This document shows positions 18,597 through 57,167 of a stretch of 64,000 nt of DNA, piece by piece. The translations under genes and the position numbers were made by a program. Under the pieces are notes generated by a model that made no database searches, was not told the DNA's origin, and was given only the letters and a program-made list of their open reading frames with translations. The number at the start of each line of letters is the position of its first letter. The stretch's first letter is position 1. The stretch comes from Desulfarculus sp. (GTDB taxonomy: Bacteria > Desulfobacterota > Desulfarculia > Desulfarculales > Desulfarculaceae), in assembly GCA_003605055.1 (NCBI GenBank), contig QZKP01000057.1, positions 1 through 64,000 on the forward strand, written 5' to 3'.

Positions 18597-18854
18597 GGCA
18601 CTCCTCCTCCCTGACGCCGACCAGGCCCGGACCCCGCCCCTGCGGTGCCCGCCACCATTATAAGGCCTGGGGGGCCTGCTTGGACACCCACCCGCAGCCG
18701 GCCCGGACCGGAAGTGCCCGCAGGGTCGGCGGGGCCGAGGGGTGGCCTGGCCGATAAGCTCCTAGTGGTGTGATAGAATTATTACTAGATTGGATTGGCT
18801 GGCGGCTGACTTGGCCGGTGGGCGGGGGGTCCACTGTGGGTGGTGAGGTCCGCG

Positions 18855-21800: not shown

Positions 21801-23648
21801 GGCGTCCCCGAGCACCACCCCACCTCCCAGTACCAGGACCAGCGCCTGGCCATGTGGGTGGAAAACTTCGTCTGCCGGCTGCCCACCGGCGAGGTGGTGG
21901 CCATCTTCGACGACATCACCCTGCGCAAGCAGGCCGAGGACTCCCTGCAGTGGGAGCTGGAGGTCAACACCGCCCTGGCCAACATGAGCCACGCCATGAT
22001 CAGCAACCAGGCGGACGTGGACTCCATCGCCGGCCTGGTGCTGCGCTACGCCCAGCGGCTCACCGGCGCCGAGCACGGCTTCGTCTCCTCCCTGGACCCG
22101 GCCACCGGCGCCAATGTGACCCACGTCATCACCCCGATGATGGGCGAGGATTGCCAGGTGCAGGGCCGGGGCCAGAGCATCTCCTTCCCCCCCAACCCCG
22201 ACGGCACCTACCCCAGCCTTTGGGGCCACAGCCTCAACACCCGCCAGTCCTTCTTCACCAACTCCCCGGCCCAGCACCCCAGCGCCGCCGGCCTGCCCCC
22301 GGGGCACATCCCGCTCAATAACTTCCTGTCGGTGCCGGTCATGTTCGCCGGGCGCCTGATCGGGCAGGTGGCCCTGGCCAACAGCACCCGCGGCTTCACG
22401 GTGCGCGACCTGCGGGCCGTGGAGCACCTGGCCGAGCTGTTCGCCCTGGCCGTACACCGCAGGCAGGCCGAGCAGGAGAGCCAAAAATTACAGGCCCAGC
22501 TCCGCCAGACCCAGAAGCTGGAGGCCATCGGCACCCTGGCCGGCGGCATCGCCCACGACTTCAACAACGTGCTGGCGGCCATACTGGGCTACACCGAGCT
22601 GACCCTGGAGACCCTGCCCCTGGTTGGCGAGGCCCGCGACAACCTGGAGCAGGTGCTCAAGGCCGGCCAGCGGGCCCGGGACCTGGTGCACCAGATACTG
22701 AGCTTCAGCCGCCGCACCGACCAGGGGCAGAGCCCGGTGGAGATCGTGCCGATCATCCAGGAGGCCCTGAAGCTGCTGCGGGCCTCGCTGCCCACCACCA
22801 TAGAGATAGAAGCCGATCTGCGCTCTCAGGGGGAGAAGGTGCTGGCCGACCCGGTGCAGATACAGCAGGTGATCATGAACCTGTGCACCAACGCGGCCCA
22901 GGCCATGCCCCAGGGCGGCCGGCTCACGGTGGAGCTGGCCTCCATCGAGCTGGACCAGCAGGTGGCCGTCCGCTACGCCGGCCTGGCCCCCGGCCCCTTC
23001 CTGCGCCTGGCGGTCAGCGACACCGGCGCGGGCATGGACCCCCAGACCCTGGAGCGCGCCTTCGAGCCCTTCTTCACCACCAAGGGCCCCGGCGAGGGCA
23101 CCGGCCTGGGTCTGAGCGTGGTGCACGGCGTGGTCCAGAGCCACCGCGGGGCCATCACCGTCTATTCCCAGCCGGGCCAGGGCACCACCTTCCACGTGTA
23201 CCTGCCGGTCTTGGAGGGCGAGCCGGGCCCGGACGGGGCGGAGGAAAACGCCCCCTTGCCCGGGGGCCGGGAGCGGGTGCTGTTGGTGGACGACGAGCCG
23301 GCCCTGGCCGAGGTGGGGCGCATGACCCTGGAGCACCTGGGCTACCAGGTCACGGCCCTGAGCTCCAGCCCCGAGGCCTTGGAGCGGTTCCGCGCCCGTC
23401 CCCAGGCCTTTGACCTGGTGATCACCGATTACACCATGCCCCAGATGACCGGCGCCGCCCTGGCCCGGGAGCTGCTCAAGATACGGCCGGAGCTGCCCAT
23501 CATCATGTGCTCCGGCTTCAGCGGCCAGCTCTCGCCCCAGCAGGCCAAGGAGCTGGGCATCAAGCGCCTGCTGCTCAAGCCCCTGGTCACCCGGGAGGTG
23601 GCCCTGGCGGTGCGCCGGGTGCTGGACGAGGCCCAAGGCCAGGGCTAG
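18855..23648 (+). CDS. Hybrid histidine kinase with eight PAS domains and a GAF domain
   Basis: The protein has 1597 residues and no clear transmembrane segment. After a short coiled coil come eight PAS domains in tandem, about 125 residues each, from about 36 to 1030; most end in a D-I-T/S-E-R type linker. A GAF domain covers about 1037-1207. The kinase H-box (GGIAHDFNN) carries the phospho-His near 1234, the N-box lies near 1335 and the G-box GTGLGLSVV near 1415. A receiver domain follows at about 1473-1590 with the acceptor Asp near 1525. PAS2 contains CTACP, a possible redox or metal site. The ATG at 18855 is preferred to two GTG codons upstream because GAGG lies six bases before it. No output protein is adjacent. 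Confidence 0.92.
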   Translation: MQDKRKTKAQLLEELAGVRARLAELEEAQALYQKPDEIYRRIVETANEGIWVVDAEYKTIFVNEKLARMLGYRPKEMLGRSTREFVHPEDLADREEKMKERRSGLPGEYERRWLHKDGGVVWALIRATPMYDDQGQFAGSFSMATDITERKGAQEALRQSETLLRALLDGITTNLAFVNRDLEIQWVNRASARSVGLTPEQMVGRKCHELWADPAQPCTACPSVKAFESGRTESTIITTPDGRVWDEKGEPVYDQRGELIGVLEIAHDITEQSKALEELAQSRQLYALATQAAKVGVWQWDLASNRLWADPMLKAILGYGEREVADTFEAWLELVHPQDREMLLTAAQAHIRGETPFAEVEVRLRRKDGSLRWLLLRGEAQRDQEGGAQKMLGAAVDITERKQAQEKLRQSEERYAEVFKASPLWVTVSTLEDGVYLDVNDSFQQITGYTREEVLGRASSEVGVWPHPEQRREAVEIIKREGGLRDFHIDYRTKSGELLHALWSAKVVEFEGRACIISVLRDITARVRAQQGLKESEERFRALYQDFPYPTYIWEHDGADLVLRAANPAAQEWTQGALPKFIGAKAREFWADLPELQEAIHRCFDQRALTTLEVPAYHSRSTGLNRHVIFTFTFAPPRHVFEYTQDITERKRARQALEESESKYRSLFEGISDAVFIHDLQGRFLEANPAACQRLGYRREELLSMSVMDIDTPDNARLAPQRLAEVQKKGALLFEGAHRTRSGQVVPVEINIHLMQYQGQAAVLSVVRDISERQAAEQVLKASEQRFRALFEWAPVGLVVLDHEYRVTRINSEFTALFGYQPSEALGQSIYELLVPPEDQPAARAYGQRVAQGRRPHFEGERICKDGSRVYVAVSSRLIASEGQEPEYYVTYQDISERRRSEQALQQSEARYRELFNNMSAGVAVYEAVEDGRDFVFKELNRSGERITQTPKEQVLGRRVSQVFPGVKNFGLFAVFQRVWRSGVPEHHPTSQYQDQRLAMWVENFVCRLPTGEVVAIFDDITLRKQAEDSLQWELEVNTALANMSHAMISNQADVDSIAGLVLRYAQRLTGAEHGFVSSLDPATGANVTHVITPMMGEDCQVQGRGQSISFPPNPDGTYPSLWGHSLNTRQSFFTNSPAQHPSAAGLPPGHIPLNNFLSVPVMFAGRLIGQVALANSTRGFTVRDLRAVEHLAELFALAVHRRQAEQESQKLQAQLRQTQKLEAIGTLAGGIAHDFNNVLAAILGYTELTLETLPLVGEARDNLEQVLKAGQRARDLVHQILSFSRRTDQGQSPVEIVPIIQEALKLLRASLPTTIEIEADLRSQGEKVLADPVQIQQVIMNLCTNAAQAMPQGGRLTVELASIELDQQVAVRYAGLAPGPFLRLAVSDTGAGMDPQTLERAFEPFFTTKGPGEGTGLGLSVVHGVVQSHRGAITVYSQPGQGTTFHVYLPVLEGEPGPDGAEENAPLPGGRERVLLVDDEPALAEVGRMTLEHLGYQVTALSSSPEALERFRARPQAFDLVITDYTMPQMTGAALARELLKIRPELPIIMCSGFSGQLSPQQAKELGIKRLLLKPLVTREVALAVRRVLDEAQGQG

Positions 23649-37789: not shown

Positions 37790-39643
37790 CTACTGTGCGC
37801 CCTCCAGGGAAATCCTGGGCTCCTGCTCAAAGCCGCAGCGGGCCAGGGTCTCCGGCGTGGGAAGGCCTTGTTCATCCCAGCCCCGCAGGGCGTAGTAGGC
37901 AGAGCGCATCTTCAGGAAGTTTTCCTCGCCTATGATCTTGCCCTCCGGCGGGCCCGAGGGCAGCGCCTCGTGCAGGATTCGCCGGGGCACCCGGTCCTGC
38001 TCCACGGTGAAGCCCTCCCGGATGTTGATGCGCCGCACCAGGGTCTCGGCCACCTCCGCCCTTTGCTCCAGCTCCGCGGCCGTGAACTTCTGGCCCGTGA
38101 CCACGCCCAGGTACTCGGCCCAATCCGGGTTTTTCAGCGGAATGAACTTGCCGGGGAAGTCGCACACCACCAGCGAGTGCATGACGCTGTTTTCGTTCAT
38201 CATCTCCACCACCAGTTCGGCCTTGCCCTCCGCGGTGAAGGGGTTCACCCCGCCCAACACCTCTTTCATGGGGGGCCAGGCCCGGCGGTGGCAGCCGCCC
38301 CGGGGCGTGGTGGAGTAGGTTATGGTGGAGCCCCAGCCGGCGCGGGGGTCATAGGCCGGGAACTCCATGCCCTTGGAGTGCATGGCGAAGGTCTCGGCCT
38401 CCCGGCCCAGCAGGCGGGCCATGTCCCGCACGCCCAAGGTGCAGAAGGCCCCAAAGCCCTGCTTGCGCCCCATCAGCTCCAGAAGCTCCACGGCGGCCAG
38501 ATAGTTGCCGAACTTGAGCTCCAGCCCGCCCGTCTCGCGCTTGCTGATCAGTCCCCGCTCGTAACACTCCATGGCAAAGCCGATGATGACCCCGGCGGAG
38601 ATGGTGTCCATGCCCAGGTCGTCGCAGATGTAGTTGGCCTTGATGATGGCCGGCAGGTAGTCGATCTCCAGGTTGGAGCCCAGCATGCCGATGGTCTCGT
38701 ACTCGGGCCCCTCCAGCTTGGTGCCGGCGAACACGCCCTCGTCGACCTGGGTTATCTTGCTGCAGGCCAGGAAGCAGCCGTAACAGGCGCGGTCGGCCAC
38801 GGTGGCCTTGGCCACCCCGTCCTTGTCTATGGTGCCGATGGCCGCCTCGAACTGCCCCCGGGAGAAGTTCCGGGTGGGCAGCATCCCGGCGGCGTGGGTG
38901 ATGTTCAGGGTCAGCGGGGTGCCGAACTTGTGCCGGGCGTTGGCGATGGGGCTTTGCTTGTAAACCTCGTAGTGCTTTTTGATCAGGGCGTACAGGCCGG
39001 GCAGGTCCGCGCAGCCCACGCCGCCGCTGCCCTTGATGGCCAGGCCCTTGAGGTTCTTGGCGCCCATGACCGCCCCGGCGCCCCCGCGGCCGGCCTTGCG
39101 GAAATAGTCGCTGCCCACGCAGGCGAACTTGATGAGGTTCTCGCCGGCCGGCCCTATGGACAGGCAGCCGCACTCCGGGTGCAGGGCCTGCTTGAGATAG
39201 GTCTCGGTGGCAAAGGAGCCCTGGCCCCAGAGATGGCCGGCGTCTTGAAAGCTCACCTTGTCGTCTTGGATGAATAACAGGCTCGGCCGCTTGGCCTTGC
39301 CGGTGATGAGCAGGCCGTCATAGCCGGCGAACTTCAGCTCCGGCGCGATGCGGCCGCTGGAATAGGTCTCCAGCCAGCCGCCGGAGGCGGGAGACTTGGT
39401 GACGATCAGGTGCTTGCAGCCGCAGGGGGCCATGGTCCCGGTGAGGGGGCCGGTAAGGACCATAAAGACGTTGTCCGGGCCCAGGGGATGGGCCTCGGGC
39501 GGGATGAGGTCCCAGTAGAGCTTGGCCCCCAAGGCGCGACCGCCGATGTATTTGTGCAGAACCTCCTCGGGCAGCGCAATGGCCTGGGAGGACTCGGTCC
39601 CAAGGTCTATATGCAGCAGTTGCCCCTTATAACCCGGCGGCAT
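37790..39643 (-). CDS. aor: Tungsten-type aldehyde:ferredoxin oxidoreductase
   Basis: The 617-residue protein has the AOR layout: an N-terminal pterin-binding domain (HIDLG, YIGGRALGA, VLTGPLTGTMAPCG, GRGGAGAVMGAKNLKG) and C-terminal domains. The 4Fe-4S ligands are visible as CYGCFLACSK (C-x2-C-x3-C) with a later Cys in RGGCHRRAW. It oxidises an aldehyde to a carboxylic acid, or the reverse, with ferredoxin. GTG (39646) or ATG (39643) could start it; AAGGAAAC lies upstream. It shares an operon with a MoaD-like carrier, a polyferredoxin and a cupin. Confidence 0.93.
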   Translation of the reverse strand: MPPGYKGQLLHIDLGTESSQAIALPEEVLHKYIGGRALGAKLYWDLIPPEAHPLGPDNVFMVLTGPLTGTMAPCGCKHLIVTKSPASGGWLETYSSGRIAPELKFAGYDGLLITGKAKRPSLLFIQDDKVSFQDAGHLWGQGSFATETYLKQALHPECGCLSIGPAGENLIKFACVGSDYFRKAGRGGAGAVMGAKNLKGLAIKGSGGVGCADLPGLYALIKKHYEVYKQSPIANARHKFGTPLTLNITHAAGMLPTRNFSRGQFEAAIGTIDKDGVAKATVADRACYGCFLACSKITQVDEGVFAGTKLEGPEYETIGMLGSNLEIDYLPAIIKANYICDDLGMDTISAGVIIGFAMECYERGLISKRETGGLELKFGNYLAAVELLELMGRKQGFGAFCTLGVRDMARLLGREAETFAMHSKGMEFPAYDPRAGWGSTITYSTTPRGGCHRRAWPPMKEVLGGVNPFTAEGKAELVVEMMNENSVMHSLVVCDFPGKFIPLKNPDWAEYLGVVTGQKFTAAELEQRAEVAETLVRRINIREGFTVEQDRVPRRILHEALPSGPPEGKIIGEENFLKMRSAYYALRGWDEQGLPTPETLARCGFEQEPRISLEGAQ

Positions 39644-39655
39644 CACGTAGTTTCC

Positions 39656-40006
39656 TTAGTCCAGCAGTTGCCGGTCCACGTTGATGGACGGGAAGGCGTA
39701 GATGATGCGAATGGGCTTGGCGCCGGTGTTGACCACCCGGTGCTTGATATTCGGTGGAATAAGCACCGTCATGGGGGCCTCCACCTTAATCACTTCATCG
39801 TTTATGTGAATCTCGCCCGAGCCCTCGCGCAGCAGGACACAGTCTTCGATGCTGTGTTTGTGCAACGGAATCTGCCCGCCGGGCTGAATGACTATCTCGC
39901 CCATGGTGATGTTCTGCGCGCCCAGCTTCCCCCCGATCAGCTCCCTGCGCTGCACCAGCGGATACATCTGCTCCAGGGGCATGTCCTTATTTTTCAGCAC
40001 CGGCAT
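39656..40006 (-). CDS. Cupin-domain protein, first gene of the AOR operon
   Basis: The 116-residue cupin has IVIQPGGQIPLHKHSIEDCV as its first metal motif (His-His-Glu positions) and IPPNIKHRVVNTG as the second. TAGGAGGAAGCAG precedes the ATG. It lies 12 bases before the AOR gene, so it may bind the same substrate or be a dioxygenase or isomerase; its exact job is unknown. Confidence 0.85.
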   Translation of the reverse strand: MPVLKNKDMPLEQMYPLVQRRELIGGKLGAQNITMGEIVIQPGGQIPLHKHSIEDCVLLREGSGEIHINDEVIKVEAPMTVLIPPNIKHRVVNTGAKPIRIIYAFPSINVDRQLLD

Positions 40007-40164
40007 CTGCTTCCTCCTAAACGCTGTTCCGCCTTGTATAGCGGCTCTAAATATGGATTTGCCGTTAGATGACCGCGGTAATGCCTGGGCCGGGTTTTTG
40101 CCAGCCCCCTAAAACGATTGCGCACCCTATTACCTTGAAATTGTTTTTCATGTTGCAACCCAGC

Positions 40165-40845
40165 TTATTTGTTTTGCTGCATGAGCCGGTCTATGGCCTG
40201 GCAGCCGTTTTCCAGGTGCAGGCTCAGAATCCTGGTGGCTTCGGCCAGGTCTCTTTTCCGCAAGGCCTCCAAGAGCAGGCCGTGCTCGGCGTTGGCCTGC
40301 TTCATGCGGGTGTCTTCGGCCAGGGCCAGATACAGATACGGCGTGATGTTGTTGTGCAGCCCGCCCAGGATCTTGACCAGGCGGGGGGAGCCGGTTAACT
40401 CGTGGATCCGGTGGTGGAACGTCCGGTTTAACTCGATCCATTCCGAATCGGTAATGTCTGGGGCGATCATGAGTTGGTATATCTCGGCTATGCCTTGGAA
40501 GCTTTCGGCGTTCAAGGACTTGAGCCCCCGCTGCAGAGACATTTCCTCCAAGGGGATGACCAGCGAATAAATGTCGTAAAGGTCTTCGCGGGTGAGCTTG
40601 TTGACCACGATGCGCCGGTCGGGTCGGAAGCTGACCATGCCTTCGGCCTCCAACTGGCGCAGGGCCTCGCGCACCGGGTTGGCGCTGACGTTAAGGCTGG
40701 CGGCCAGCTCGCCGATCTTGAGCTGCTGGCCGGGCTCGATCCTGCCGGTCACGATGACGTGGCGGAGCCGTTCATAGACCACCCGCTGCAGTTGCGGCTT
40801 CTCCACCGGAGGCCCCAGGATCAGGGAAGGTACGCTGTTCGGCAT
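40165..40845 (-). CDS. GntR-family regulator with FCD domain
   Basis: The 226-residue protein has an N-terminal winged helix (VYERLRHVIVTGRIEPGQQ, with VSANPVREALRQLEAEGMV as the recognition part) and a C-terminal helical FCD ligand domain. FCD-type GntR regulators sense carboxylates such as lactate, gluconate or fatty acids. A 25-base palindrome and a -35 box lie directly upstream, so it is probably autoregulated. It precedes the cupin-AOR operon by 158 bases on the same strand and is its likely regulator. Confidence 0.92.
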   Translation of the reverse strand: MPNSVPSLILGPPVEKPQLQRVVYERLRHVIVTGRIEPGQQLKIGELAASLNVSANPVREALRQLEAEGMVSFRPDRRIVVNKLTREDLYDIYSLVIPLEEMSLQRGLKSLNAESFQGIAEIYQLMIAPDITDSEWIELNRTFHHRIHELTGSPRLVKILGGLHNNITPYLYLALAEDTRMKQANAEHGLLLEALRKRDLAEATRILSLHLENGCQAIDRLMQQNK

Positions 40846-40851
40846 GCGGGT

Positions 40852-40876
40852 AAGATATATATATATTATATATCTT
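40852..40876. promoter_or_regulatory. GntR operator over its own promoter
   Basis: AAGATATATA-tatat-TATATATCTT is a perfect 10+10 inverted repeat. Directly upstream on the minus strand, TTGACA (40876-40881) is a consensus -35 box, and the palindrome fills the spacer and -10 region (TATAAT is visible inside the palindrome). It stands seven bases upstream of the gntR start, so the bound regulator would block transcription and shape autoregulation. Confidence 0.75.
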
Positions 40877-40882
40877 GTCAAG

Positions 40883-41293
40883 CACAAAAAATTTATGGAT
40901 TTAATATATTAATTTCAATAAGTTATGCTCTCAAGCCAGGCCTGGGCTCACCTTGCCGCGTCCTTCTGCGCCGAGGATCACATCCGCAAGGGCCTTCATA
41001 TAATTTGCTACATATAATCAATAAGTTAACCGCAAGAACCTCGGCGCGTTCACAGCCCAACCGGGGTCCAGGGGGCCAAAGCAGGCGCCCGCCCCGCAGG
41101 CCGAGCCTTGGCCGGCTTTGCTGGCCGGCGGCCAGCAATAGATTGCTTCTCGCCGTAATTATTGGTAACAACTCAGTCAGGCCCTACTGAACCGGGCCTG
41201 GCCTGCGTCCTCCTCGGCCGCCCCACCCAGGCGGCCGGCGGACAAACCAGCCGCCGGGCCCCGGTTTTGCGCCAGCCCACGGCGGAGACCCTC
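40883..41293. other. Intergenic region between divergent gntR and ntrC-type genes
   Basis: This gap is AT-richer than the genes and has two TATAAT hexamers at 40999-41004 and 41013-41018 on the plus strand, without a convincing -35. It probably carries the promoter of the NtrC-type regulator. The plus-strand frame continuing upstream of 41294 has no ribosome binding site and no recognisable domain, so I do not extend the gene. Confidence 0.4.
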
Positions 41294-42676
<1,383 letters not shown>

Positions 42677-42700
42677 GGCGTTGCGCCTGGTCAACATAGA

Positions 42701-42716
42701 GTTGCGTTAGCGCAAC
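42701..42716. promoter_or_regulatory. Candidate enhancer (UAS) for the NtrC-type activator
   Basis: GTTGCG-TTAG-CGCAAC is a perfect 6+6 inverted repeat just after the stop of the regulator gene. A looser copy (GTTG at 42680, CAAC at 42692-42695) precedes it, and a third relative, GTTGC-GG-GCAAC, lies at 42846-42857. They are about 150-185 and 10 bases upstream of the sigma-54 promoter. Binding is inferred from symmetry and position. Confidence 0.6.
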
Positions 42717-42724
42717 AAATCAAT

Positions 42725-42750
42725 CCCCGGCCCGTTATGGCGGGGTTTTT
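42725..42750 (+). terminator. Intrinsic terminator after the NtrC-type gene
   Basis: CCCCGGCC pairs with GGCGGGG (one bulged G) around a six-base loop and is followed by TTTTT. It ends the regulator transcript 49 bases after its stop, so the next operon must have its own promoter. Confidence 0.75.
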
Positions 42751-42866
42751 GGCCCCCGACGGCCGCGTTGCCCGTTACACGCCGAAACGATCCCTTCCGG
42801 GCCCCGCCAAGGGGCTCTCACCAACTACATCAATTAAATAAATAAGTTGCGGGCAACACCCGGCCT

Positions 42867-42882
42867 TGGTACGGGCCTTGCT
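42867..42882 (+). promoter_or_regulatory. Sigma-54 (-24/-12) promoter of the stress/sulfur-signalling operon
   Basis: TGGTACG-GGCC-TTGCT fits the consensus TGGYACG-N4-TTGCW exactly, including the GG and GC spacing. Transcription would begin near 42892, before an AGGAG and the UspA-like gene. The preceding gene is an NtrC-type activator with nearby palindromes. This is the best regulatory match in the window. Confidence 0.85.
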
Positions 42883-42913
42883 CTCCCCTGAGGCAAGGAG
42901 AGATGTATTCCGC

Positions 42914-43441
42914 ATGCTCCGCAGAGTCTTGATTGTTTTGGAGAACGAGGAGGTCTGCCGCCAGGCGGTGGACTATGCCCGGGAGCTGGCCGGCCGCATG
43001 GGCGCGGAGGTCACCCTGCTCATGCTGGTGGAGATGGCCCTGTTGGACCGCGGCGCCTTGGGCCGCAAGCGCAGCGCCCTCAATGAGCTGGATGAGCGGG
43101 CGGGCCGCCTGCTGGCCGAGATCGGGGCCGAGTTCCTGCGCGAGGGCATAGCCACCAGCGCGGCCCTGCGGGTGGGCGACCCGGCCCAGGAGCTGGTGAA
43201 GTTCCTGGCCGAGCGGCCGCCCTTCCAGGTGGCCATCTGGGGCAGCGGCCAGGAACTGCCAGCCCCGGCCCGCCGTCACTGGCTGGCCAAGGCGGCAGGC
43301 GCCTTGGAGTGTTCCTTGCTCGCGGTGCAGGCCAGGCAAAGGCCCCAGGCGAGTGCGCCAGCCGCGGAGGCCGCGGGTGAGCAGCCGACGGTTTCGAACA
43401 CAGGCCGATCCAAGCCGGCGGGAGACCGCAAACGTCAATAA
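42914..43441 (+). CDS. UspA-like universal stress protein
   Basis: The 175-residue protein has a universal-stress-protein-like alpha/beta fold. Strand 1 is RRVLIVLENEEVCRQAVDYA, and the middle has EVTLLMLVEMALL. A helix-strand pattern to residue about 140 leads to a disordered Ala/Pro/Arg tail. The usual ATP-binding GxxGx9GS loop is only partly recognisable (GSGQELPAPARRHW). AGGAG lies 13 bases before the ATG, longer than ideal. It is the first gene behind the sigma-54 promoter. Confidence 0.7.
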   Translation: MLRRVLIVLENEEVCRQAVDYARELAGRMGAEVTLLMLVEMALLDRGALGRKRSALNELDERAGRLLAEIGAEFLREGIATSAALRVGDPAQELVKFLAERPPFQVAIWGSGQELPAPARRHWLAKAAGALECSLLAVQARQRPQASAPAAEAAGEQPTVSNTGRSKPAGDRKRQ

Positions 43442-43451
43442 GGAGTCTAGG

Positions 43452-44981
43452 ATGGCCATTGTCATCATTTCCAGCGAAATCAAAAACGTCAGGAGAGATC
43501 TGGCCCAGAGCGTGGCGGCCAAGCTGGGCGCCCAGTGCATCAGCCGCGAACAACTTGTGGAGCAAGCCACCCAGGCCGGCATCCCCGTGGGGAAGCTGGA
43601 GGTGGCCGTGTTCAAGCAGAGCACGCCGCGGGAGCGTTTGGCGCGCCTGAAGTATCGTTATCTGGCCTTCGTCACCGCCGCCCTCTGCGATCTGGCCAGC
43701 CAACACCGCGACCTGGTCTACCACGGCCGGGCGGGCAACCTGCTCTTGCCCAGAATCTCTCATGTGATACGGGTGCGGCTCCTGGCCGACGAAGAGCGCC
43801 AGTTGCAGCAGACCATGACCTCGTTGAACCTGGAGATGGAAAAGGCCAAGGACTATCAGCGCCGACTGCAAGAGGATGTGGCGCGCTGGGTTCATTTCAT
43901 GCACGGCACAGATCCCAACGACCTCCGGGGCTACGACCTGGTTCTAAACCTGGCCCACTTGAAAATGGAAAGCGCCGCAGCGGCCATCTTCTCCATGGCC
44001 CAACTGCCGGATTTCCAGACCACCCCGGCCTCCACCCAGGCCCTGGGCGATCTCTGCCTGGCCGCGCGGGCTCGCGACCTGCTGGGCCGTGATGAGCGCA
44101 CCGGCGACATAGACCTGGGGGTTTCGGCCCAGGACGGGCGGCTGACCGTGACCTACATGCCGCAGCAGGCAGAAAAGGCCCCAGCCATCAAGGCGCTGCT
44201 GGCCTCCCTGCAAGGGGCGCGCGAGGTGGTCTGCACCATGGCGCTGACCAACCTGCTTTGGGTCTCGGAGTCCTTCGACCCCGACAGTTCCAGCTTCGCC
44301 CACGTGACCGATTTGGCCCAGCGCTGGGGCGCGGCGGTGGAGCTGATGCGCCTGGCGCCCCAGACCGCCGATGAAGAGGGAGTTTGCCTCGCCAGCGCCG
44401 AGGATCTGACCGCCGCCGGGCCCTGCCTGCCCAAGGAGATGGACCTCACCGGCGGCATCCAGGACGACGTGGTGACTCAGCCCGCCGGAGCCGACGGGGG
44501 CCTGGCCTCCACCGCCGAACGTCTGATCAGCCTGGGCCTATTCGGCGGGGGGCGCGTCCTAGTTGGCGGCGGCGAGGAGGTGGTGGTGGCCATCAAGTCC
44601 GCGCCGCACTACTCGCTGGTGGTGGTGGGTGACGTGTTCGTGAGCAAGTCGCCGGCGGTGCGCACTAGGCTCAGCCGCGAGCTGGTGGCCTATGTCTCCG
44701 AGCGGGTCACCCTGCCGGTCATGTCCAAGGAAGACTTGCAAGCCAAGGTGGTCTTCGGCGCCAAGCAGTTCGCGCGCCTGGCCCTGTACACCGCCCCGGT
44801 GGCAGCGATCTTCCTAGCGGTGTTCACCTTCCAGGAGCCGATACAGGGGTTCCTGGGTTCTCCGGGCAGTCTGGGCATGAAGGTCTTGGCCGCCGCCGCA
44901 GTGGCCGGCTTCGTGCCCCTGGTGGCCTACCTCTACGGGAACAGCGCGGGGCTGCTCTTCAAGTGGTTGCGGTTTGAATAA
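43452..44981 (+). CDS. Cytidylate-kinase-like protein with C-terminal membrane helices
   Basis: The 509-residue protein begins with a cytidylate-kinase-like fold (about residues 1-190). ISREQLVEQATQAG and the HGRAGNLLLPRISHVIRVRL segment match that family. The P-loop glycine-rich motif expected after strand 1 is missing (it reads IISSEIKNVRRDLAQ), so kinase activity is unlikely. The middle region (about 200-430) is not recognised. Two hydrophobic helices lie at about 452-472 and 482-507. It likely acts as a nucleotide or protein sensor at the membrane. It precedes the TauE gene by 44 bases. Confidence 0.78.
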   Translation: MAIVIISSEIKNVRRDLAQSVAAKLGAQCISREQLVEQATQAGIPVGKLEVAVFKQSTPRERLARLKYRYLAFVTAALCDLASQHRDLVYHGRAGNLLLPRISHVIRVRLLADEERQLQQTMTSLNLEMEKAKDYQRRLQEDVARWVHFMHGTDPNDLRGYDLVLNLAHLKMESAAAAIFSMAQLPDFQTTPASTQALGDLCLAARARDLLGRDERTGDIDLGVSAQDGRLTVTYMPQQAEKAPAIKALLASLQGAREVVCTMALTNLLWVSESFDPDSSSFAHVTDLAQRWGAAVELMRLAPQTADEEGVCLASAEDLTAAGPCLPKEMDLTGGIQDDVVTQPAGADGGLASTAERLISLGLFGGGRVLVGGGEEVVVAIKSAPHYSLVVVGDVFVSKSPAVRTRLSRELVAYVSERVTLPVMSKEDLQAKVVFGAKQFARLALYTAPVAAIFLAVFTFQEPIQGFLGSPGSLGMKVLAAAAVAGFVPLVAYLYGNSAGLLFKWLRFE

Positions 44982-45025
44982 ACACACTCAGGCATTAGGC
45001 CCGTTTTTCGCCGGGGAGGATAGGA

Positions 45026-46123
45026 ATGCACGGTCTCCTTTCGGAACTTTTCATCAACCTTGACCTGTACTCGGCCCTGCAGGTGGTGATCCTGGGCTTC
45101 ATAGGCGGCGTCCTGAGCGGATTCATCGGCAGCGGCGGGGCCTTCTTCATGACGCCGGGCATGATGAACCTGGGGGTGCAGGGTGTGGTCGCTGTGGCCA
45201 GCAACATCACCCACAAGTTCGGCAAGGCCATGGTGGGCTCGCACAAGCACGGAGAGATGGGCAATGTGGACAAGAAGCTGGCCTTATCCCTGCTCATCAC
45301 AGCCGCCGCCGGCATCCGGCTGGCGGTATGGTTGTCTAGCCTCCTGTTCGAAAGTGGAGATGCCAGCGGGGGGCACAAGGGCGCCGGGGCCAACCTCTAT
45401 ATCAGCCTGGTGTTCGTGAGCATTCTTACCGTGGTGGCGGTCTCCATGCTCAAGGACGTTTTCGGCAAGAAGAGCGACGGTGACACGGGACCCTCGCACA
45501 AGATCGCCGAGGCCCTGGCCAGGCTGAACCTGAAGCCCCTGATCTACTTCAAGGTGGCCGACGTGCACGTGTCGTTGTGGGTGCTCCTGCTGGTGGGCCT
45601 GACCACGGGCTACCTGGCCGGCACCATTGGCGTGGGCGGCTTCATCGGCGTGCCGGCCATGATCTACGTCTTCGGCATCCCCACCGCAGTGGCTGCCGGC
45701 ACCGAGCTTTACCTGGCCATGTTCATGGGGGCTTTCGGCGCGCTCAACTACGCCTTCGCGGGTTATGTGGACCTTAGGCTGGTCTTGCTCCTGTTCTTGG
45801 GTTCACTGCTCGGGGTGCATCTGGGCGTGTACGGGGTCAAGGTGGTCAAGGAGAAGATCATCCGCCTGGTCACCGGCGTAATCATCCTCCTATGCGTGCT
45901 CAGCCGGGCGGTGGCCATTCCTGTCTACCTTCGCCAGATGGACCTCATTAATACCGCCGCCTCGTGGGACGGGTGGTTGAACAGCGCCAGCAAGGGGCTT
46001 CTTTTCGCAAGTGGATTCGCTGGCATCGGCATCATTATGTATAACGTGCTCAAGGCTTACCGTCAGCGGCTGCGCCTTAAGCGTACCATCGCCTACTCGC
46101 AGAAGCCGACCGGGCAGCACTAG
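45026..46123 (+). CDS. TauE/SafE-family sulfite exporter-like permease
   Basis: The 365-residue protein has two copies of the TauE/SafE half-repeat, with GGVLSGFIGSGGAFFMTPGM near the N-terminus and GYLAGTIGVGGFIGVPAMIYV in the second half, and about eight helices. Members export sulfite, sulfoacetate or related organosulfur anions. GGGGAGGATAGGA precedes the ATG. Its place between CMK-like and receiver genes is typical of a conserved group in sulfate reducers, as I recall it. Confidence 0.9.
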   Translation: MHGLLSELFINLDLYSALQVVILGFIGGVLSGFIGSGGAFFMTPGMMNLGVQGVVAVASNITHKFGKAMVGSHKHGEMGNVDKKLALSLLITAAAGIRLAVWLSSLLFESGDASGGHKGAGANLYISLVFVSILTVVAVSMLKDVFGKKSDGDTGPSHKIAEALARLNLKPLIYFKVADVHVSLWVLLLVGLTTGYLAGTIGVGGFIGVPAMIYVFGIPTAVAAGTELYLAMFMGAFGALNYAFAGYVDLRLVLLLFLGSLLGVHLGVYGVKVVKEKIIRLVTGVIILLCVLSRAVAIPVYLRQMDLINTAASWDGWLNSASKGLLFASGFAGIGIIMYNVLKAYRQRLRLKRTIAYSQKPTGQH

Positions 46124-46143
46124 TGACAGGGAGGAAGTTTCCC

Positions 46144-46590
46144 ATGTCCACGCCGCTTAGGGTCATGTTGATCGACGACGAGCCCATCGTGGGCAAGCGC
46201 CTGGGACCGGTCCTGGAAAAAATGGGGTGCCAGACCGAGACGTTTGTGGAGCCGGCCGTCGCCCTTAACCGCCTGGCGGAACAGGAATTCGACGTGGTGG
46301 TCACCGACATCCGCATGGAAGAAGTGGACGGCATCGGGGTCCTGGAGCGGGTCAAGGCGCTGTCCCCGCGCACCAAGGTCATCATGATAACCGGGTATGC
46401 TACCCTGGAGGTAGCCCACGAGGCCCTGGCCAAGGGAGCCTTTGACTTCATTGCCAAACCATTCGAGCCGCGGGACATGCGTCAGGCCGTAGCCAAGGCC
46501 GCCGAGGCCCTGGGGCTCCAAATGCCGGAGGCGGCGGCCCTCATGGTCGAGGAGATACTTCTTACGGAAGAGAGTGGTCTACCTGAATAA
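46144..46590 (+). CDS. Output-less response regulator A
   Basis: The 148-residue receiver has MLIDDEPIVGKRLGPVLEKM, acceptor Asp in VVTDIRMEEVDGIG and Lys in FIAKPFEPRD, then a short C-terminal tail. It has no DNA-binding domain. It is a close paralogue of the receiver at 47639: LLDDEPIVGRRLKPALAKI there aligns almost residue for residue. It follows the TauE gene by 20 bases. Confidence 0.9.
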   Translation: MSTPLRVMLIDDEPIVGKRLGPVLEKMGCQTETFVEPAVALNRLAEQEFDVVVTDIRMEEVDGIGVLERVKALSPRTKVIMITGYATLEVAHEALAKGAFDFIAKPFEPRDMRQAVAKAAEALGLQMPEAAALMVEEILLTEESGLPE

Positions 46591-46708
46591 GGGCGGCCGC
46601 CACGCCTACCACTTGGACGCCAAGCTGGGGCCTTTGCGCGCCGGCCTGCCCGGCATCAACCACCTGGAGGTGCGCGAAGGCCTGCCCTTCCCTCCGGCCG
46701 CGGTATAG
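46574..46708 (+). CDS. 44-residue small protein overlapping the receiver gene
   Basis: A GTG at 46574, with GGAAGAGA just upstream, opens a 44-codon frame (MVYLNKGGRHAYHL at the start, LPFPPAAV at the end) that overlaps the end of the receiver gene by 17 bases. Codons favour G/C in the third position as in real genes here, and the frame fills an otherwise empty 164-base gap. No family is recognised. It could instead be chance reading of GC-rich DNA. Confidence 0.45.
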   Translation: MVYLNKGGRHAYHLDAKLGPLRAGLPGINHLEVREGLPFPPAAV

Positions 46709-46753
46709 GCCCGGCCGCCGCGCCCGCGGCGGCCGCCAGAGAGGATGGAAGTC

Positions 46754-47578
46754 ATGTCCCTGATAGCCATTTCGGCTGACTCGTACCCCCAAGGCCTGGA
46801 CATAGCCCAGCGCACGGCCGCCGCCCTGGGTTACGGGTTGCTGGGCCGGGAACTGCTGGCCCAGGTGGCCGCCGACCGCGGCCTGCCCCAGGAGCAGTTG
46901 GTCCAGGCCCTGGAGGAGACGCCCGGCTTCTTCGGCATGCGCACCCGCCGCCAGCAGGAGCTGTTGCTCCACATCCAGGCCGCCTGCCTAGAGAGGCTGC
47001 TGGCCGACAACCTGGTGTGCTACGGGCTGGGCGCCCACCTGTACCTGGTGGGGGTCAGCCACGCCCTGCGGGTGCGCGTGCTGGCCGAGCCCCAGCAGCG
47101 GGCCGCGGAGCTGGCCGCCCTGCGCGGCCTGCCCCCGGAGCGCGCCGCCAAGCTGCTGGAGCGCCAGGACCAGGAGCGCAGGCGCTGGTCCTCGCAGTTC
47201 TTCCAGGCCGACGAGATGGACCCCGCCCAGTACGACATGGTGCTCAGCCTGGGCAACCTGGAGCCGGAAAAGGCGGTGGAGATCATCTGCGACGCGGCCG
47301 GCTACCGCAAGTTCCAGGCCATGACCTACTCCCGCAAGTGCCTGCAGGACAAGGCCCTGGCCGCCCGGGTGCTGGCGAAGCTCATGCCCCGGTTCCCGGA
47401 CATCCGGCTGCAGGCCTCCGACGGCACGGTGGTGGCCCAGGTGCAGTCTCTGAAGCGGGACCAGCGCAAGAAGCAGGAGGCCGTGCGCGAGCTGGCCAGC
47501 CAGGTGCCGGGGGTGAGCTACGTCGAGGTGCAGGTGATCCGGGATTATTTCGGCCAGGCCGCCCAGAGCGGCCGCTAA
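46754..47578 (+). CDS. Cytidylate-kinase-like protein with BON-like C-terminus
   Basis: The 274-residue protein again looks like the cytidylate-kinase fold in its first 190 residues: GLDIAQRTAAALGYGLLGRE at the N-terminus and LVCYGLGAHLYLVGVSHALR in place of the GRAGN segment. It also lacks a P-loop. The C-terminal part (about 205-265) resembles a BON domain (RLQASDGTVVAQVQSLKRD, then VPGVSYVEVQVI), which binds membranes or ligands. It has no transmembrane helix. It and the next receiver repeat the CMK/receiver pairing seen upstream. Confidence 0.75.
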   Translation: MSLIAISADSYPQGLDIAQRTAAALGYGLLGRELLAQVAADRGLPQEQLVQALEETPGFFGMRTRRQQELLLHIQAACLERLLADNLVCYGLGAHLYLVGVSHALRVRVLAEPQQRAAELAALRGLPPERAAKLLERQDQERRRWSSQFFQADEMDPAQYDMVLSLGNLEPEKAVEIICDAAGYRKFQAMTYSRKCLQDKALAARVLAKLMPRFPDIRLQASDGTVVAQVQSLKRDQRKKQEAVRELASQVPGVSYVEVQVIRDYFGQAAQSGR

Positions 47579-47638
47579 AGAGGCCCCCGCTTGCCGCCAC
47601 GGGCGGGCTGGCCCCATGATGTGATAGGAGGTGGTCTG

Positions 47639-48052
47639 ATGCCTGAACCTCTGGAGGTGCTCCTGCTGGACGACGAGCCCATCGTGGGCCGCCGGCTCAA
47701 GCCGGCCCTGGCCAAGATCGGCTGCGCGGTGGAGGTCTTCGAGAACCCGGAAAAGGCCCTGGCCCGGCTGCAGGAAAAGGAGTTCAAGATAGTGGTCACC
47801 GACATCCGCATGGACGACATTGACGGCATGCAGGTGCTGGAGTTCGTGCGCGAGCGGTGGCCGGAGAGCAAGGTGATCATGATCACGGGCTACGCCATGA
47901 TGTCCCTGGCCCGGGAGGCCATGGAAAAGGGCGCCTTTGACTTCATCGCCAAGCCCTTCAAGCCCGACGACCTGCGCCGGGTGATCGCCAAGGCCGCCCG
48001 CGCCCTGGGCTACACCCTGGACTTCGAGGCCGCCGCCCCCGAAGGCGGCTAG
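47639..48052 (+). CDS. Output-less response regulator B
   Basis: The 137-residue receiver has LLLDDEPIVGRRLKPALAKI, acceptor Asp in VVTDIRMDDIDGMQV and Lys in FIAKPFKPDD. It is a paralogue of the receiver at 46144 and has no output domain. TAGGAGGTGGTCTG precedes the ATG. The adjacent NtrB-type kinase gene, 21 bases later, is its probable partner. Confidence 0.9.
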   Translation: MPEPLEVLLLDDEPIVGRRLKPALAKIGCAVEVFENPEKALARLQEKEFKIVVTDIRMDDIDGMQVLEFVRERWPESKVIMITGYAMMSLAREAMEKGAFDFIAKPFKPDDLRRVIAKAARALGYTLDFEAAAPEGG

Positions 48053-48073
48053 CCCCTTCGGACCCGGCCGGGC

Positions 48074-49663
48074 ATGACCAGCATCCCCCAGAACCAGCCT
48101 CCGGCCGTGGGCGCCGGCGGCCAGGCCGAGCGGACCCGTCTGGCCGAGCGGGCCGAGGGCATCCGCCGGGCCCTGGTGGAGCGCCCGCGCTTCAGCCTGC
48201 GCCTGCAGATGTACCTGGGCTTCCTGGCGGCCTTCATCCTGTCCGCGGGCGTGGCCGTGGCCCTGGTCTATAACTTCCACGACATGGAGAACAAGATCCG
48301 CTTCCTGGAGATAGTCAACGACTACGTGATGGAGGTGGAGCAGGCGCGGCGCTTCGAGAAGAACTTCCTGCTCTACGGCAGCAACCTCAGCGACGCCCTG
48401 GACAGCGTGTTCCAGGCCGAGCAGATACTCACCCGCAACGCCGGCGAGCTGGCCGCGGTGATGGGTCCCGGCTGGAGCCAGGTCATGCTCCCCAAGCTGC
48501 GCGGCTACCAGGCCTTGCTGGAGCGGCTGGGCCGCTTGCAGGGCGCGGCCGGCGCCCAGGGGGGGCCGGCCCGCCAGGACCTGCAGGCCCGGGTGCGCAA
48601 GGAAGGCCAGGAGATGGTCTCGGCGGCCCTGGCCCTGCTGAGCAAGGAAAAGGCCTCCCTGTCCACCACCACCCGCCGCTCCCGCCAGATACTGATCTAC
48701 TCCCTGGCCCTGCTGCTGGTGGTGCTGGTGCTGAACGCCTACCTGCTGGGCATCCGCATGCTGGGCTCCATCAACCGCTTCGGGGAATACGCCAACCGCA
48801 TCGCCGCCGGCGACTACACGCCCATTACCCCCTCCCGCCGTTACCGCGACGAATTCACGGACCTGGCCCTGGCCATCAACGCCATGATCCAGGAGCTGGA
48901 GAACCGGGAGGCGGTGTTGATCCAGTCGCACAAGATGCGGGCGGTGGGCACCCTCACCTCGGGCGTGGCCCACGAGCTGAACAACCCCCTGAACAACATC
49001 ACCCTCACCGCCCACGTGCTGCAGGAGGACTACGCCGGCCTGTCGGACGCCGAGCGGCAGGAGATGATCGCCGACGTGGTGCAGGAGGCGGGGCGGGCCA
49101 AGAAGATCATCAGCAACCTGCTGGACTTCGCCCGGGAGACCGGCTCCCAGTTGGAGCCCCTGGACCTGCCCCACCTGCTGCAAGAGACCATTGACCTGGC
49201 CGCCAACCAGATCAAGCTGCTGGGGATCAAGATCCAGTTGCAGTCATCCGACAACCTGCCCCGGGTGCACGGCGACAGCCAGCAGCTCCGGCAGGTGTTC
49301 CTGAACCTGATCCTCAACGCCATCGACGCCTCGGCCAAGGGCGGCAAGATCCAGGTGATAGTGGTGCCAGCCGATGAGCCCAACTACGTGGCGGTCAAGG
49401 TCATAGACTTCGGCAGCGGCATCCCGGCCCACATCCTGCCCTCCCTCTTCGACCCCTTCTTCACCACCAAGGGCCGGGGCAAGGGCACCGGCCTGGGGCT
49501 GAGCGTGTCCCAAGGCATCGTGGCCAAGCACGGCGGCCGCATCATGGTGAGCAGCCAGGCCGGCCAGGGTGCCACCTTCACCGTGGTGCTGCCGGTGACC
49601 ACCATCCCGGCCGAGCTGGGCGAGGGCCGCCACCCCGAGCCGGCCAACCGCGCCAAGGCCTGA
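48074..49663 (+). CDS. NtrB-type membrane histidine kinase with HAMP
   Basis: The 529-residue protein has a helix at about 45-66, a periplasmic four-helix-like domain of about 140 residues and a second helix at about 210-230. A HAMP stretch (LGSINRFGEYANRIAAGDY) leads to the kinase core with H-box GVAHELNNPLNNITL (His near residue 300), then GTGLGLSVSQGIVAKHGG. It is likely to phosphorylate the two adjacent receivers and/or the NtrC-type regulator at 41294. The extracellular sensing domain suggests a soluble ligand or surface stress. Confidence 0.9.
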   Translation: MTSIPQNQPPAVGAGGQAERTRLAERAEGIRRALVERPRFSLRLQMYLGFLAAFILSAGVAVALVYNFHDMENKIRFLEIVNDYVMEVEQARRFEKNFLLYGSNLSDALDSVFQAEQILTRNAGELAAVMGPGWSQVMLPKLRGYQALLERLGRLQGAAGAQGGPARQDLQARVRKEGQEMVSAALALLSKEKASLSTTTRRSRQILIYSLALLLVVLVLNAYLLGIRMLGSINRFGEYANRIAAGDYTPITPSRRYRDEFTDLALAINAMIQELENREAVLIQSHKMRAVGTLTSGVAHELNNPLNNITLTAHVLQEDYAGLSDAERQEMIADVVQEAGRAKKIISNLLDFARETGSQLEPLDLPHLLQETIDLAANQIKLLGIKIQLQSSDNLPRVHGDSQQLRQVFLNLILNAIDASAKGGKIQVIVVPADEPNYVAVKVIDFGSGIPAHILPSLFDPFFTTKGRGKGTGLGLSVSQGIVAKHGGRIMVSSQAGQGATFTVVLPVTTIPAELGEGRHPEPANRAKA

Positions 49664-55427: not shown

Positions 55428-57167
55428 ATGTTCCGCATACGGCGCATTTACGACGACCTGCGGGCCGTGGACCGCGAGGCCATCGCGCAGGTGCGCGCCA
55501 TATTGGCCGGGCAGTTCCCCCTGGCCCCGGCCAAGGACAGCGAGGGCCTGAGCGAACGCCTGCGCGACGCCCTGACCCACCGCCTGCGCTACGTGATCCT
55601 GGTGGCCGAAGAGCAGCGGCGGCGGGTGCTGGGCTTCGCCCTGATGGCCTACGCCCCGGACCTGAAGTTCTGCTACCTGGACTACCTGGCCACCGCCCGC
55701 CGCCTGACCGGAGGCGGCGTGGGCGGCGCCCTGTACCAGCAGGTGCGGCGCGAGGCCATCCGCCTGGAGGCGCTGGGCCTGTTCATGGAGTGCCTGCCCG
55801 ACGACCCCGCCCTGTGCCCGGACCCGGAGATGCTCAAGCAGAACCGGGCCCGCCTGAAGTTCTACGAGCGCTTCGGCGCCCGTCCCATCATCGGCACGGC
55901 CTACGAGGCGCCGGTGAACCCCGGCGACGACTGCCCGCCCTACCTGGTCTACGACCCCCTGGACCGCCCTCCCCTGCTGCCGCGCAAGATGGCGCGCAAG
56001 GTGACCCGGGCCATCCTGGAGCGCAAGTACGGCGAGCTGTGCCCTGCGGCCTACGTGGAGATGGTGGTGGCCTCGATCAAGGACGACCCGGTGCGCCTGC
56101 GGCCGCCCCGCTACACCACCGCCCGCACCCCGGCCCCCCGGCCGCGGGGGCGCGGCCTGGGGGCCATACCCCTGGTGGTCAACCGCGAGCACACCATCCA
56201 CCACGTGCGCGAGCGGGGCTACGTGCAGGCGCCGGTGCGCATCGGGGCCATCACCAAGGCGCTGGAGCGCACCAGCCTGTTCCTGCCCACCACCGCCCGG
56301 CGCTTCTCGCGAAACCACATCCTGGCCGTGCACGACCAGCGCTTCTTCAACTACCTGAAGAAAATGTGCGGCCTGCTGGGCCCCGGGGAGTCGGTCTATC
56401 CCTACGTCTTCCCCCTGCGCAACGCCGCCCGTCCGCCCAAGGAGCTGCCGGTGCGGGCCGGCTACTACTGCATAGACACCTTCACCCCGCTCAGCCGCAA
56501 CGCCTACCACGCCGCCCGCCGGGCGGTGGACTGCGCCCTCACCGCCGCCGACGCGGCGCTCAGCGGCTTCCCGGCCGCCTACGCCCTGGTGCGGCCGCCG
56601 GGGCACCACGCCGAGCGCAAGGCCTTCGGCGGCTTCTGCTACTTCAACTCGGCCGCGGTGGCCGCCCACTACCTGAGCGCCCACGGCAAGGTGGCCCTGG
56701 TGGACCTGGACTACCACCACGGCAACGGCAGCGAGGACATCTTTTATCTGCGCGGGGACGTGTTCACCGCCTCCATCCACGGCCACCCCTCCTTCGCCTA
56801 TCCCTATTTCTCCGGCTTCCGCGAAGACGACGGCGAGGGGGCCGGCGCCGGCTGCAACTACAACCTGCCCCTGCCCGAGCGGGTGGACGGGGCGGCCTAC
56901 GCCCAGGCGTTGCACAAGGTGCTGCGCCGGGTGCAGCGCTTCGGCCCCAGCTTCCTGGTGGTGGCCCTGGGCCTGGACACGGCCAAGGGCGACCCCACCG
57001 GCTCCTGGAGCCTGAGCGCGGCCGACTTCCTGGCCAACGGCCGCCTGCTGGGCGAGCTGAAGCTGCCCACCCTGGTGGTGCAGGAGGGCGGCTACTACAT
57101 CCGCTCCCTGGGGGCGAACGCGCGCAACTTCTTCCAGGGCCTGGCCCAGGCCCTGGACCTGGCCTGA
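55428..57167 (+). CDS. GNAT acetyltransferase-histone deacetylase fusion
   Basis: The 579-residue protein joins a GNAT domain (residues about 1-170, LDYLATARRLTGGGVGGALY) to a class II histone-deacetylase/acetylpolyamine amidohydrolase domain (about 230-575). The deacetylase part shows RPPGHHAERKAFGGFCYFN (catalytic His pair near 391-393), DLDYHHGNGSEDIF with zinc ligands Asp and His near 426-428, the ligand Asp in GLDTAKGDP near 514, and the catalytic Tyr in EGGYY near 555. It could both add and remove acyl groups. GGGAAGGGAGC precedes the ATG. It sits in a row with two other acyltransferase-like genes and sucCD. Confidence 0.9.
   Translation: MFRIRRIYDDLRAVDREAIAQVRAILAGQFPLAPAKDSEGLSERLRDALTHRLRYVILVAEEQRRRVLGFALMAYAPDLKFCYLDYLATARRLTGGGVGGALYQQVRREAIRLEALGLFMECLPDDPALCPDPEMLKQNRARLKFYERFGARPIIGTAYEAPVNPGDDCPPYLVYDPLDRPPLLPRKMARKVTRAILERKYGELCPAAYVEMVVASIKDDPVRLRPPRYTTARTPAPRPRGRGLGAIPLVVNREHTIHHVRERGYVQAPVRIGAITKALERTSLFLPTTARRFSRNHILAVHDQRFFNYLKKMCGLLGPGESVYPYVFPLRNAARPPKELPVRAGYYCIDTFTPLSRNAYHAARRAVDCALTAADAALSGFPAAYALVRPPGHHAERKAFGGFCYFNSAAVAAHYLSAHGKVALVDLDYHHGNGSEDIFYLRGDVFTASIHGHPSFAYPYFSGFREDDGEGAGAGCNYNLPLPERVDGAAYAQALHKVLRRVQRFGPSFLVVALGLDTAKGDPTGSWSLSAADFLANGRLLGELKLPTLVVQEGGYYIRSLGANARNFFQGLAQALDLA

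Follow-up and report, generated by a model that had tools for sequence, protein, structure and literature searches.

A chimeric sigma-54 two-component operon in a Desulfarculaceae genome joins cytidylate kinase-like proteins and receivers to a TauE-family carrier

The stretch analysed here, referred to as the window, comprises 64,000 nucleotides of contig QZKP01000057.1 from Desulfarculus sp., a relative within the Desulfarculaceae with a genome of 3.6 Mb (94% complete) in which dsrA scored above its family cut-off in a profile match. At 42677–49663 it carries an operon for a Usp-family protein, two proteins related to cytidylate kinases (CMK1 and CMK2), a carrier of the TauE/TSUP family, two stand-alone receivers (REC1 and REC2) and a membrane histidine kinase (HK), and this operon is preceded by the gene of a sigma-54 enhancer-binding protein (EBP). 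Judged from its sequence, the window operon is a chimera of two operon classes, which we defined in this analysis as type A and type B. The simplest history would be that of a type A operon in which a hybrid or type B cassette (CMK1, TauE, REC1) took the place of the permease and most of a further cytidylate kinase-like gene, CMKa. The parts kept from type A would then be the EBP, a palindrome, the promoter, CMKb, REC, HK and the last ∼44 codons of CMKa.

Both operon types were recognised among 80 stretches fetched from Desulfobacterota (labelled with L-numbers), which we sorted by operon arrangement. The type A order is EBP, Usp, SLC13-type permease, CMKa, CMKb, REC and HK; it is complete in L079–L084, L093 and L094, and present in L085 as far as the stretch reaches. 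The type A permease has 600 amino acids with CitMHS, Na_sulph_symp and TrkA_C domains, and scores best against CitMHS. Type B runs from Usp through a CMK1-like protein with a long C-terminal extension to TauE and REC, and has an HK or EBP nearby (L076, L077 and L110–L114). Every TauE found at an identity of at least 64% adjoins a long CMK, which holds for 11 loci including the window; the contig of L078 ends before the position of the long CMK. The more distant TauE relatives (L115–L148) have an EBP within the fetched stretch in 31 of 34 cases, nearly always together with an HK. In genome G006, type A and type B are both present at separate places. The order Usp-CMK-TauE-REC, whose recurrence across Desulfobacterota was proposed as a check in an initial annotation of this DNA, is that of type B. 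The annotation was right in reading the locus as a two-component operon under sigma-54 control, in which CMK-like proteins without a P-loop and receivers are linked to a transporter, and such operons are seen elsewhere in the phylum. In several loci (L111, L112, L114, L120, L126, L093 and L106), receivers, kinases and carriers of the TauE or SLC13 kind are accompanied by proteins of the PPDK_N/PEP-utilizer type (∼860 amino acids), possibly a further phospho-signalling part.

Gene trees placed the two portions of the window operon in different classes. The EBP and the HK both fell in type A clades, that is, among SLC13 operons (SH-aLRT 99 each, where SH-aLRT denotes support from the Shimodaira-Hasegawa-like approximate likelihood ratio test). 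Likewise, CMK2 grouped with type A CMKb (SH-aLRT 98) and REC2 fell in a type A clade (SH-aLRT 97). CMK1, in contrast, grouped with type B (SH-aLRT 100) and TauE fell in the clade of type B/C TauE proteins (SH-aLRT 100). REC1 was placed outside the REC2 clade and near type B receivers, with weak support. Measured against the type A gene set, the window operon therefore has the EBP, CMKb, REC and HK, whereas the SLC13 permease and an intact CMKa are replaced and a stub of CMKa remains. The SLC13 orthologue of the relatives' type A operons, which is 80–100% identical among G001, G005, G006, G009 and G011, was not found in the 94% complete window genome, where only a 51% identical paralogue is present.

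The stub corresponds to a 44-codon open reading frame that had been listed within the operon. Its sequence proved to be real, but it is a gene remnant: aligned with the C-terminus of CMKa from L083, it scored 123 against 34.0 ± 4.5 for shuffled sequences (z 20). When it was compared with the open reading frames of all loci, the 13 top scorers were the 13 type A CMKa proteins. Comparison with CMKb gave no comparable match, tblastn matches were confined to type A loci, and the frame sits exactly where the end of CMKa is expected. We therefore rejected a functional small protein in favour of a C-terminal stub of type A CMKa. The borders of the cassette can also be located in the nucleotide sequence. 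Identity shifts from the relatives in the window genus to L073, which belongs to another genus of the family, near 43260–43320 inside usp, and reverts to the genus relatives near 46550–46580, giving a cassette of about 3.25 kb. Over 42924–46538 the identity to L073 is 81%. Within usp, the 3′ part is like that of the donor type (L073), while the 5′ part resembles the genus relatives equally or slightly more.

These data bear on two other histories. The initial annotation had read the operon as a duplicated module. A tandem duplication of a CMK-receiver module at this locus would indeed fit the occurrence, in one operon, of a pair of CMK-like proteins sharing 31% identity and a pair of receivers sharing 60% over 133 residues. 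However, each copy is closer to genes of other operon types than to the neighbouring copy, and the CMKa stub lies between both halves. Moreover, approximately unbiased (AU) tests rejected CMK1 and CMK2 as sisters (p-AU 2.1e-6) as well as REC1 and REC2 (p-AU 8.3e-5). The two pairs are therefore not local duplicates but come from two separate operon types, and a tandem duplication is scarcely credible. Alternatively, the mixed gene order might be old and inherited, in which case the likeness to the other genus would reflect slow evolution and not transfer. In line with this, the same hybrid order is found in three more genomes of the family, as far as their contigs reach (L073, L074 and L075). 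Against it, the cassette proteins are 80–85% identical to those of L073, whereas the EBP reaches 61%, the HK 60% and CMK2 40%. The GC content at third codon positions also counts against an inherited order, being 0.79–0.86 in usp, CMK1, TauE and REC1 versus 0.93–0.96 in EBP, CMK2, REC2 and HK, and the CMKa stub was not found in L073–L075. We consider inheritance of the mixed order quite unlikely, and retain the replacement within a type A operon as our preferred history.

The features of the locus are the following:
41294–42676, plus strand: EBP, sigma-54 response-regulator activator (Pfam: REC, AAA+, lid and HTH_8; GAYTGA motif)
42701–42716, no strand assigned: palindrome GTTGCGTTAGCGCAAC, candidate EBP-binding site (conservation and uniqueness in the genome)
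42867–42882, plus strand: -24/-12 sigma-54 promoter TGGTACGGGCCTTGCT (10 of 11 consensus positions)
42914–43441, plus strand: Usp-family protein, chimeric gene (PF00582, 3.2e-8)
43320–46560 (approximate), plus strand: putative imported type B cassette with the usp end, CMK1, TauE and REC1 (identity, breakpoints, GC at third codon positions)
43452–44981, plus strand: CMK1, Cytidylate_kin2-like (PF13189, 5.7e-20, 72.7 bits)
45026–46123, plus strand: TauE/TSUP carrier (PF01925, 2.6e-36, 125.9 bits)
46144–46590, plus strand: REC1, stand-alone receiver (PF00072, 3.5e-28)
46574–46708, plus strand: 44-codon open reading frame, CMKa stub or scar (alignment to type A CMKa)
46745–47578, plus strand: CMK2, equal to type A CMKb, Cytidylate_kin2-like (PF13189, 3.3e-26, 93.0 bits)
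47639–48052, plus strand: REC2, stand-alone type A receiver (PF00072, 2.1e-28)
48074–49663, plus strand: HK, membrane sensor histidine kinase (two transmembrane segments, HAMP, HisKA, HATPase)

All nine reading frames of the initial annotation are present, and the broad families stated for them were recovered by Pfam. The EBP combines a receiver, an AAA+ domain with a GAFTGA-type loop (in the GAYTGA variant) and a Fis-type helix-turn-helix, as is typical of sigma-54 enhancer-binding response regulators. The narrower label of an NtrC-type activator did not hold, as the EBP scored 414 bits against the NtrC (nitrogen regulator I) equivalog TIGR01818 with its cut-off of 558.6 bits. Similarly, the proposed NtrB-type kinase is a membrane histidine kinase, but it passed no curated kinase cut-off among the matches listed. 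Phospho-acceptor residues are kept in every receiver of the locus, including REC1 and REC2. These two had been described as near-identical in their first 25 residues; this was overstated, while their likeness extends well past residue 25.

The promoter, previously described as exact, is a strong site with one deviation, a T for C in TGGCAC. By chance, 1.74 sites with at most one mismatch are expected in 64 kb, and a single site alone is not significant. In 13 homologous operons, however, the summed best -24/-12 score was 123, compared to 97.3 ± 2.8 for shuffled sequences (largest 107). Since strong sites recur in these operons at a near-constant distance before the Usp start, we regard the window site as significant. 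The perfect palindrome GTTGCGTTAGCGCAAC is the best candidate for the EBP-binding site. The only exact occurrence of GTTGCGNNNNCGCAAC in the 3.6 Mb genome is the window palindrome, and the relatives L081–L084 carry GTTGCG-N4-CGCAAC, exact or with one base changed, at the equivalent position. Variants with shorter spacing are found in L079, L090 and L149. The upstream regions of type B operons (L076, L077 and L111) have a different, GTTCC-N5-GGAAC-like palindrome before the promoter, which suggests another activator specificity.

CMK1 and CMK2 were both assigned to Cytidylate_kin2 (PF13189) above the curated cut-off of 28 bits, as were all 36 aligned members that were checked with Pfam. As had been noted from the sequence, neither protein has a visible P-loop. 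This is a general property and not specific to the locus, as the Walker A motif GxxxxGK[ST] occurs in none of the 47 CMK-like sequences of our alignment. Most type A CMKa proteins keep a Walker A-like stretch, GSYSxG[KR]E, but CMK1 and CMK2 have no GK[ST] and have lost even this version. With no Walker A in either protein, a canonical CMP kinase was rejected. The AlphaFold model of CMK2 (mean predicted local distance difference test, pLDDT, 80) contains a P-loop-kinase domain, for which a fold search returned 3HDT and 3FDI as best matches (Z 15–16), followed by CMP kinases (Z 13–14). The C-terminal element of CMK2 is predicted to have an alpha-beta-beta-alpha-beta order and to be BON-like. CMK1 has a C-terminal extension of ∼250 amino acids ending in two transmembrane segments; its model is of low confidence (pLDDT 55), with the N-terminal part alone resolved. 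At L115–L119, a separate Usp-like protein of ∼230 amino acids with a transmembrane hairpin precedes TauE and, by eye and by weak profile matches, resembles the C-terminal half of CMK1. A comparison of CMK2 with plasmids gave no match.

A connection between CMK-like domains and two-component signalling is indicated by gene fusions. All 20 longer CMK homologues that were fetched (404–441 amino acids in most) proved to be CMK-REC fusions with hidden Markov models built for this analysis, and most of these fusions (L155–L174) have an HK and a single stand-alone receiver as neighbours. In addition, the window genome itself encodes a CMK-REC paralogue (L070:9139–10362), for which Pfam confirmed the fusion. 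As the two domains are fused in this paralogue and in every long relative, we conclude that CMK-like and receiver domains probably work together. These fusions provide the best evidence for a role of the CMK-like domain within two-component signalling.

We favour, by a modest measure, the view that the locus is a sigma-54 two-component operon for a small-anion carrier, in which the carrier was swapped and the CMK-like proteins are receiver-coupled adaptors. The membrane HK would sense an extracytoplasmic or energy-state signal and phosphorylate the EBP, which would then bind at 42701–42716 and fire the -24/-12 promoter. Carrier, adaptors and HK would be made together, resulting in autoregulation. 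The HK would also phosphorylate REC1 and REC2, and these may dock on the CMK-like proteins. Instead of being CMP kinases, the latter would serve as receiver-coupled, possibly nucleotide-sensing adaptors that set the activity of the carrier, with CMK1 held next to TauE by its transmembrane hairpin. The cargo would be a compound handled by SLC13 and TauE carriers alike, most likely sulfate or another sulfur oxyanion in this sulfate reducer; transporters of sulfate or sulfite are known from each of the two families (PMC5840216), which favours such a cargo. More tentatively, and with the odds somewhat against it, PF13189 proteins could form an unrecognised class of two-component effectors across Desulfobacterota: catalytically dead P-loop kinases, fused or docked to receivers, that gate anion carriers, with unrelated carrier families swappable under one sensor.

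Two parts of this proposal have competitors. Rather than adaptors, the CMK-like proteins might be enzymes, such as nucleoside monophosphate kinases or similar phosphotransferases, that make a nucleotide or phospho-signal. The match of the CMK2 fold to CMP kinases and the Walker A-like stretch retained by type A CMKa would be consistent with this idea. However, the lack of the canonical motif in every copy and the loss of the CMKa version from CMK1 and CMK2 argue against it, as do the scores of CMK1 and CMK2, 14.3 and 16.6 bits against the (d)CMP kinase model cyt_kin_arch, far below its cut-off of 102.1 bits, and we judge an enzymatic role improbable. The second competitor concerns the cargo, which may be an organic acid connected with the oxidation of lactate or pyruvate instead of a sulfur oxyanion. 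Sigma-54 regulons with PSE-family transporters in D. vulgaris are linked to lactate metabolism (PMC3333781, PMC4641369); the targets assigned there to the activators DVU0539 and DVU0946 belong to lactate metabolism and to transmembrane transport. Such regulons weigh against a sulfur oxyanion, and the best score of the type A permease, to the citrate-transporter family CitMHS, points in the same direction. The sulfate and sulfite transporters within SLC13/DASS and TauE/TSUP, together with dsrA in the host, speak against an organic cargo, which we hold to be unlikely but in need of serious consideration. The window carrier clearly belongs to TauE/SafE (125.9 bits, cut-off 32.6 bits). Of the sulfur-anion export proposed in the initial annotation, the TauE carrier in the operon stands, while the export label derives from the family name alone (PMC5840216, PMC4641369); indeed, the function of TauE carriers in sulfate reducers cannot be predicted (PMC5840216).

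Several further observations count against the receiver-coupled carrier operon with a swapped carrier. The phosphotransfer, binding and transport steps are all read from sequence, and REC1 and REC2 might have different partners or act as phosphate sinks. The TauE relatives at L115–L119 have no CMK domain, and CMK is therefore not required for every such carrier. Matches to BON (PF04972) stayed below the Pfam cut-off, with 6 of the 36 members at E-values up to 1 (best 0.06). Finally, the flanking genes (aldehyde ferredoxin oxidoreductase, cupin-like open reading frame, GntR, PASTA, YgjP and sucCD) showed no synteny with the relatives in the fetched stretches. Since these genes are not common to the relatives, the data do not show that the exchange happened at an orthologous chromosomal position.

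Elsewhere in the window, the opposite strand next to the operon (37790–40887, minus) carries the aldehyde ferredoxin oxidoreductase, the small cupin-like open reading frame and a GntR/FCD regulator. Just downstream of the sucCD-like genes, 55428–57167 (plus) encodes a fusion of a GNAT acetyltransferase with a histone-deacetylase-like domain, possibly an acetylation/deacetylation pair in one protein. The product of 18840–23648 (plus) is a hybrid histidine kinase of great length, in which numerous PAS domains are combined with GAF and a receiver. Rfam and tRNA scans of the window returned tRNA-Met at 51.75 kb and nothing else.

Sulfate reducers possess many two-component systems and carriers of unassigned purpose. 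A concrete link between phosphorelay in such systems, the transport of anions and a widespread but uncharacterised family of kinase-like proteins is offered here by the swap of carriers and by the fusions of CMK with REC. Through the stub, the locus becomes a natural replacement experiment in which sensor, EBP and promoter stayed constant while the carrier changed, which suggests that both carriers serve one physiological need. The locus thereby points to an overlooked family of kinase-like proteins acting with two-component signalling and transport.

In agreement with the initial annotation, which could match the system to no described pathway, we found no such pathway in the open-licence literature, nor any description there of PF13189/CMK-like proteins linked to receivers or TauE. 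Parts of the arrangement do have counterparts. The TSUP/PSE-transporter regulons of D. vulgaris (DVU0539/DVU0946 and DVU0110/DVUA0057) likewise combine a response-regulator EBP, a sigma-54 promoter, transporter targets and mostly palindromic binding sites, and autoregulation was reported for DVU0539/DVU0946, which we compared by general arrangement only (PMC3333781, PMC4641369). They differ from the window locus, where the operon ends with the HK gene and two operon types are joined, and the word 'cytidylate' does not appear in the main text of these papers. The sulfate-transporter cluster of Desulfosarcina variabilis resembles type A in combining SLC13/DASS carriers with several two-component systems in a sulfate reducer, but it uses regulators of the WalR type, kinases with Cache domains and CBS proteins (PMC11887813), none of which was found at the window locus. 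TauE of Cupriavidus necator, a sulfite exporter (Weinitschke 2007, as cited in PMC5840216 and PMC3949148), shares the carrier family PF01925 with the window TauE; the window operon differs by its two-component regulation and by containing no sulfonate-degradation genes. The Cytidylate_kin2 structures 3HDT and 3FDI share the fold of CMK2 and sequence similarity with a type A CMKa, whereas the proteins described here have an extra C-terminal fold, a setting in a two-component operon and relatives fused to receivers. Sigma-54 two-component transporter operons were hence already known, whereas the link between CMK-like proteins and receivers appears, by the open-licence literature, to be new.

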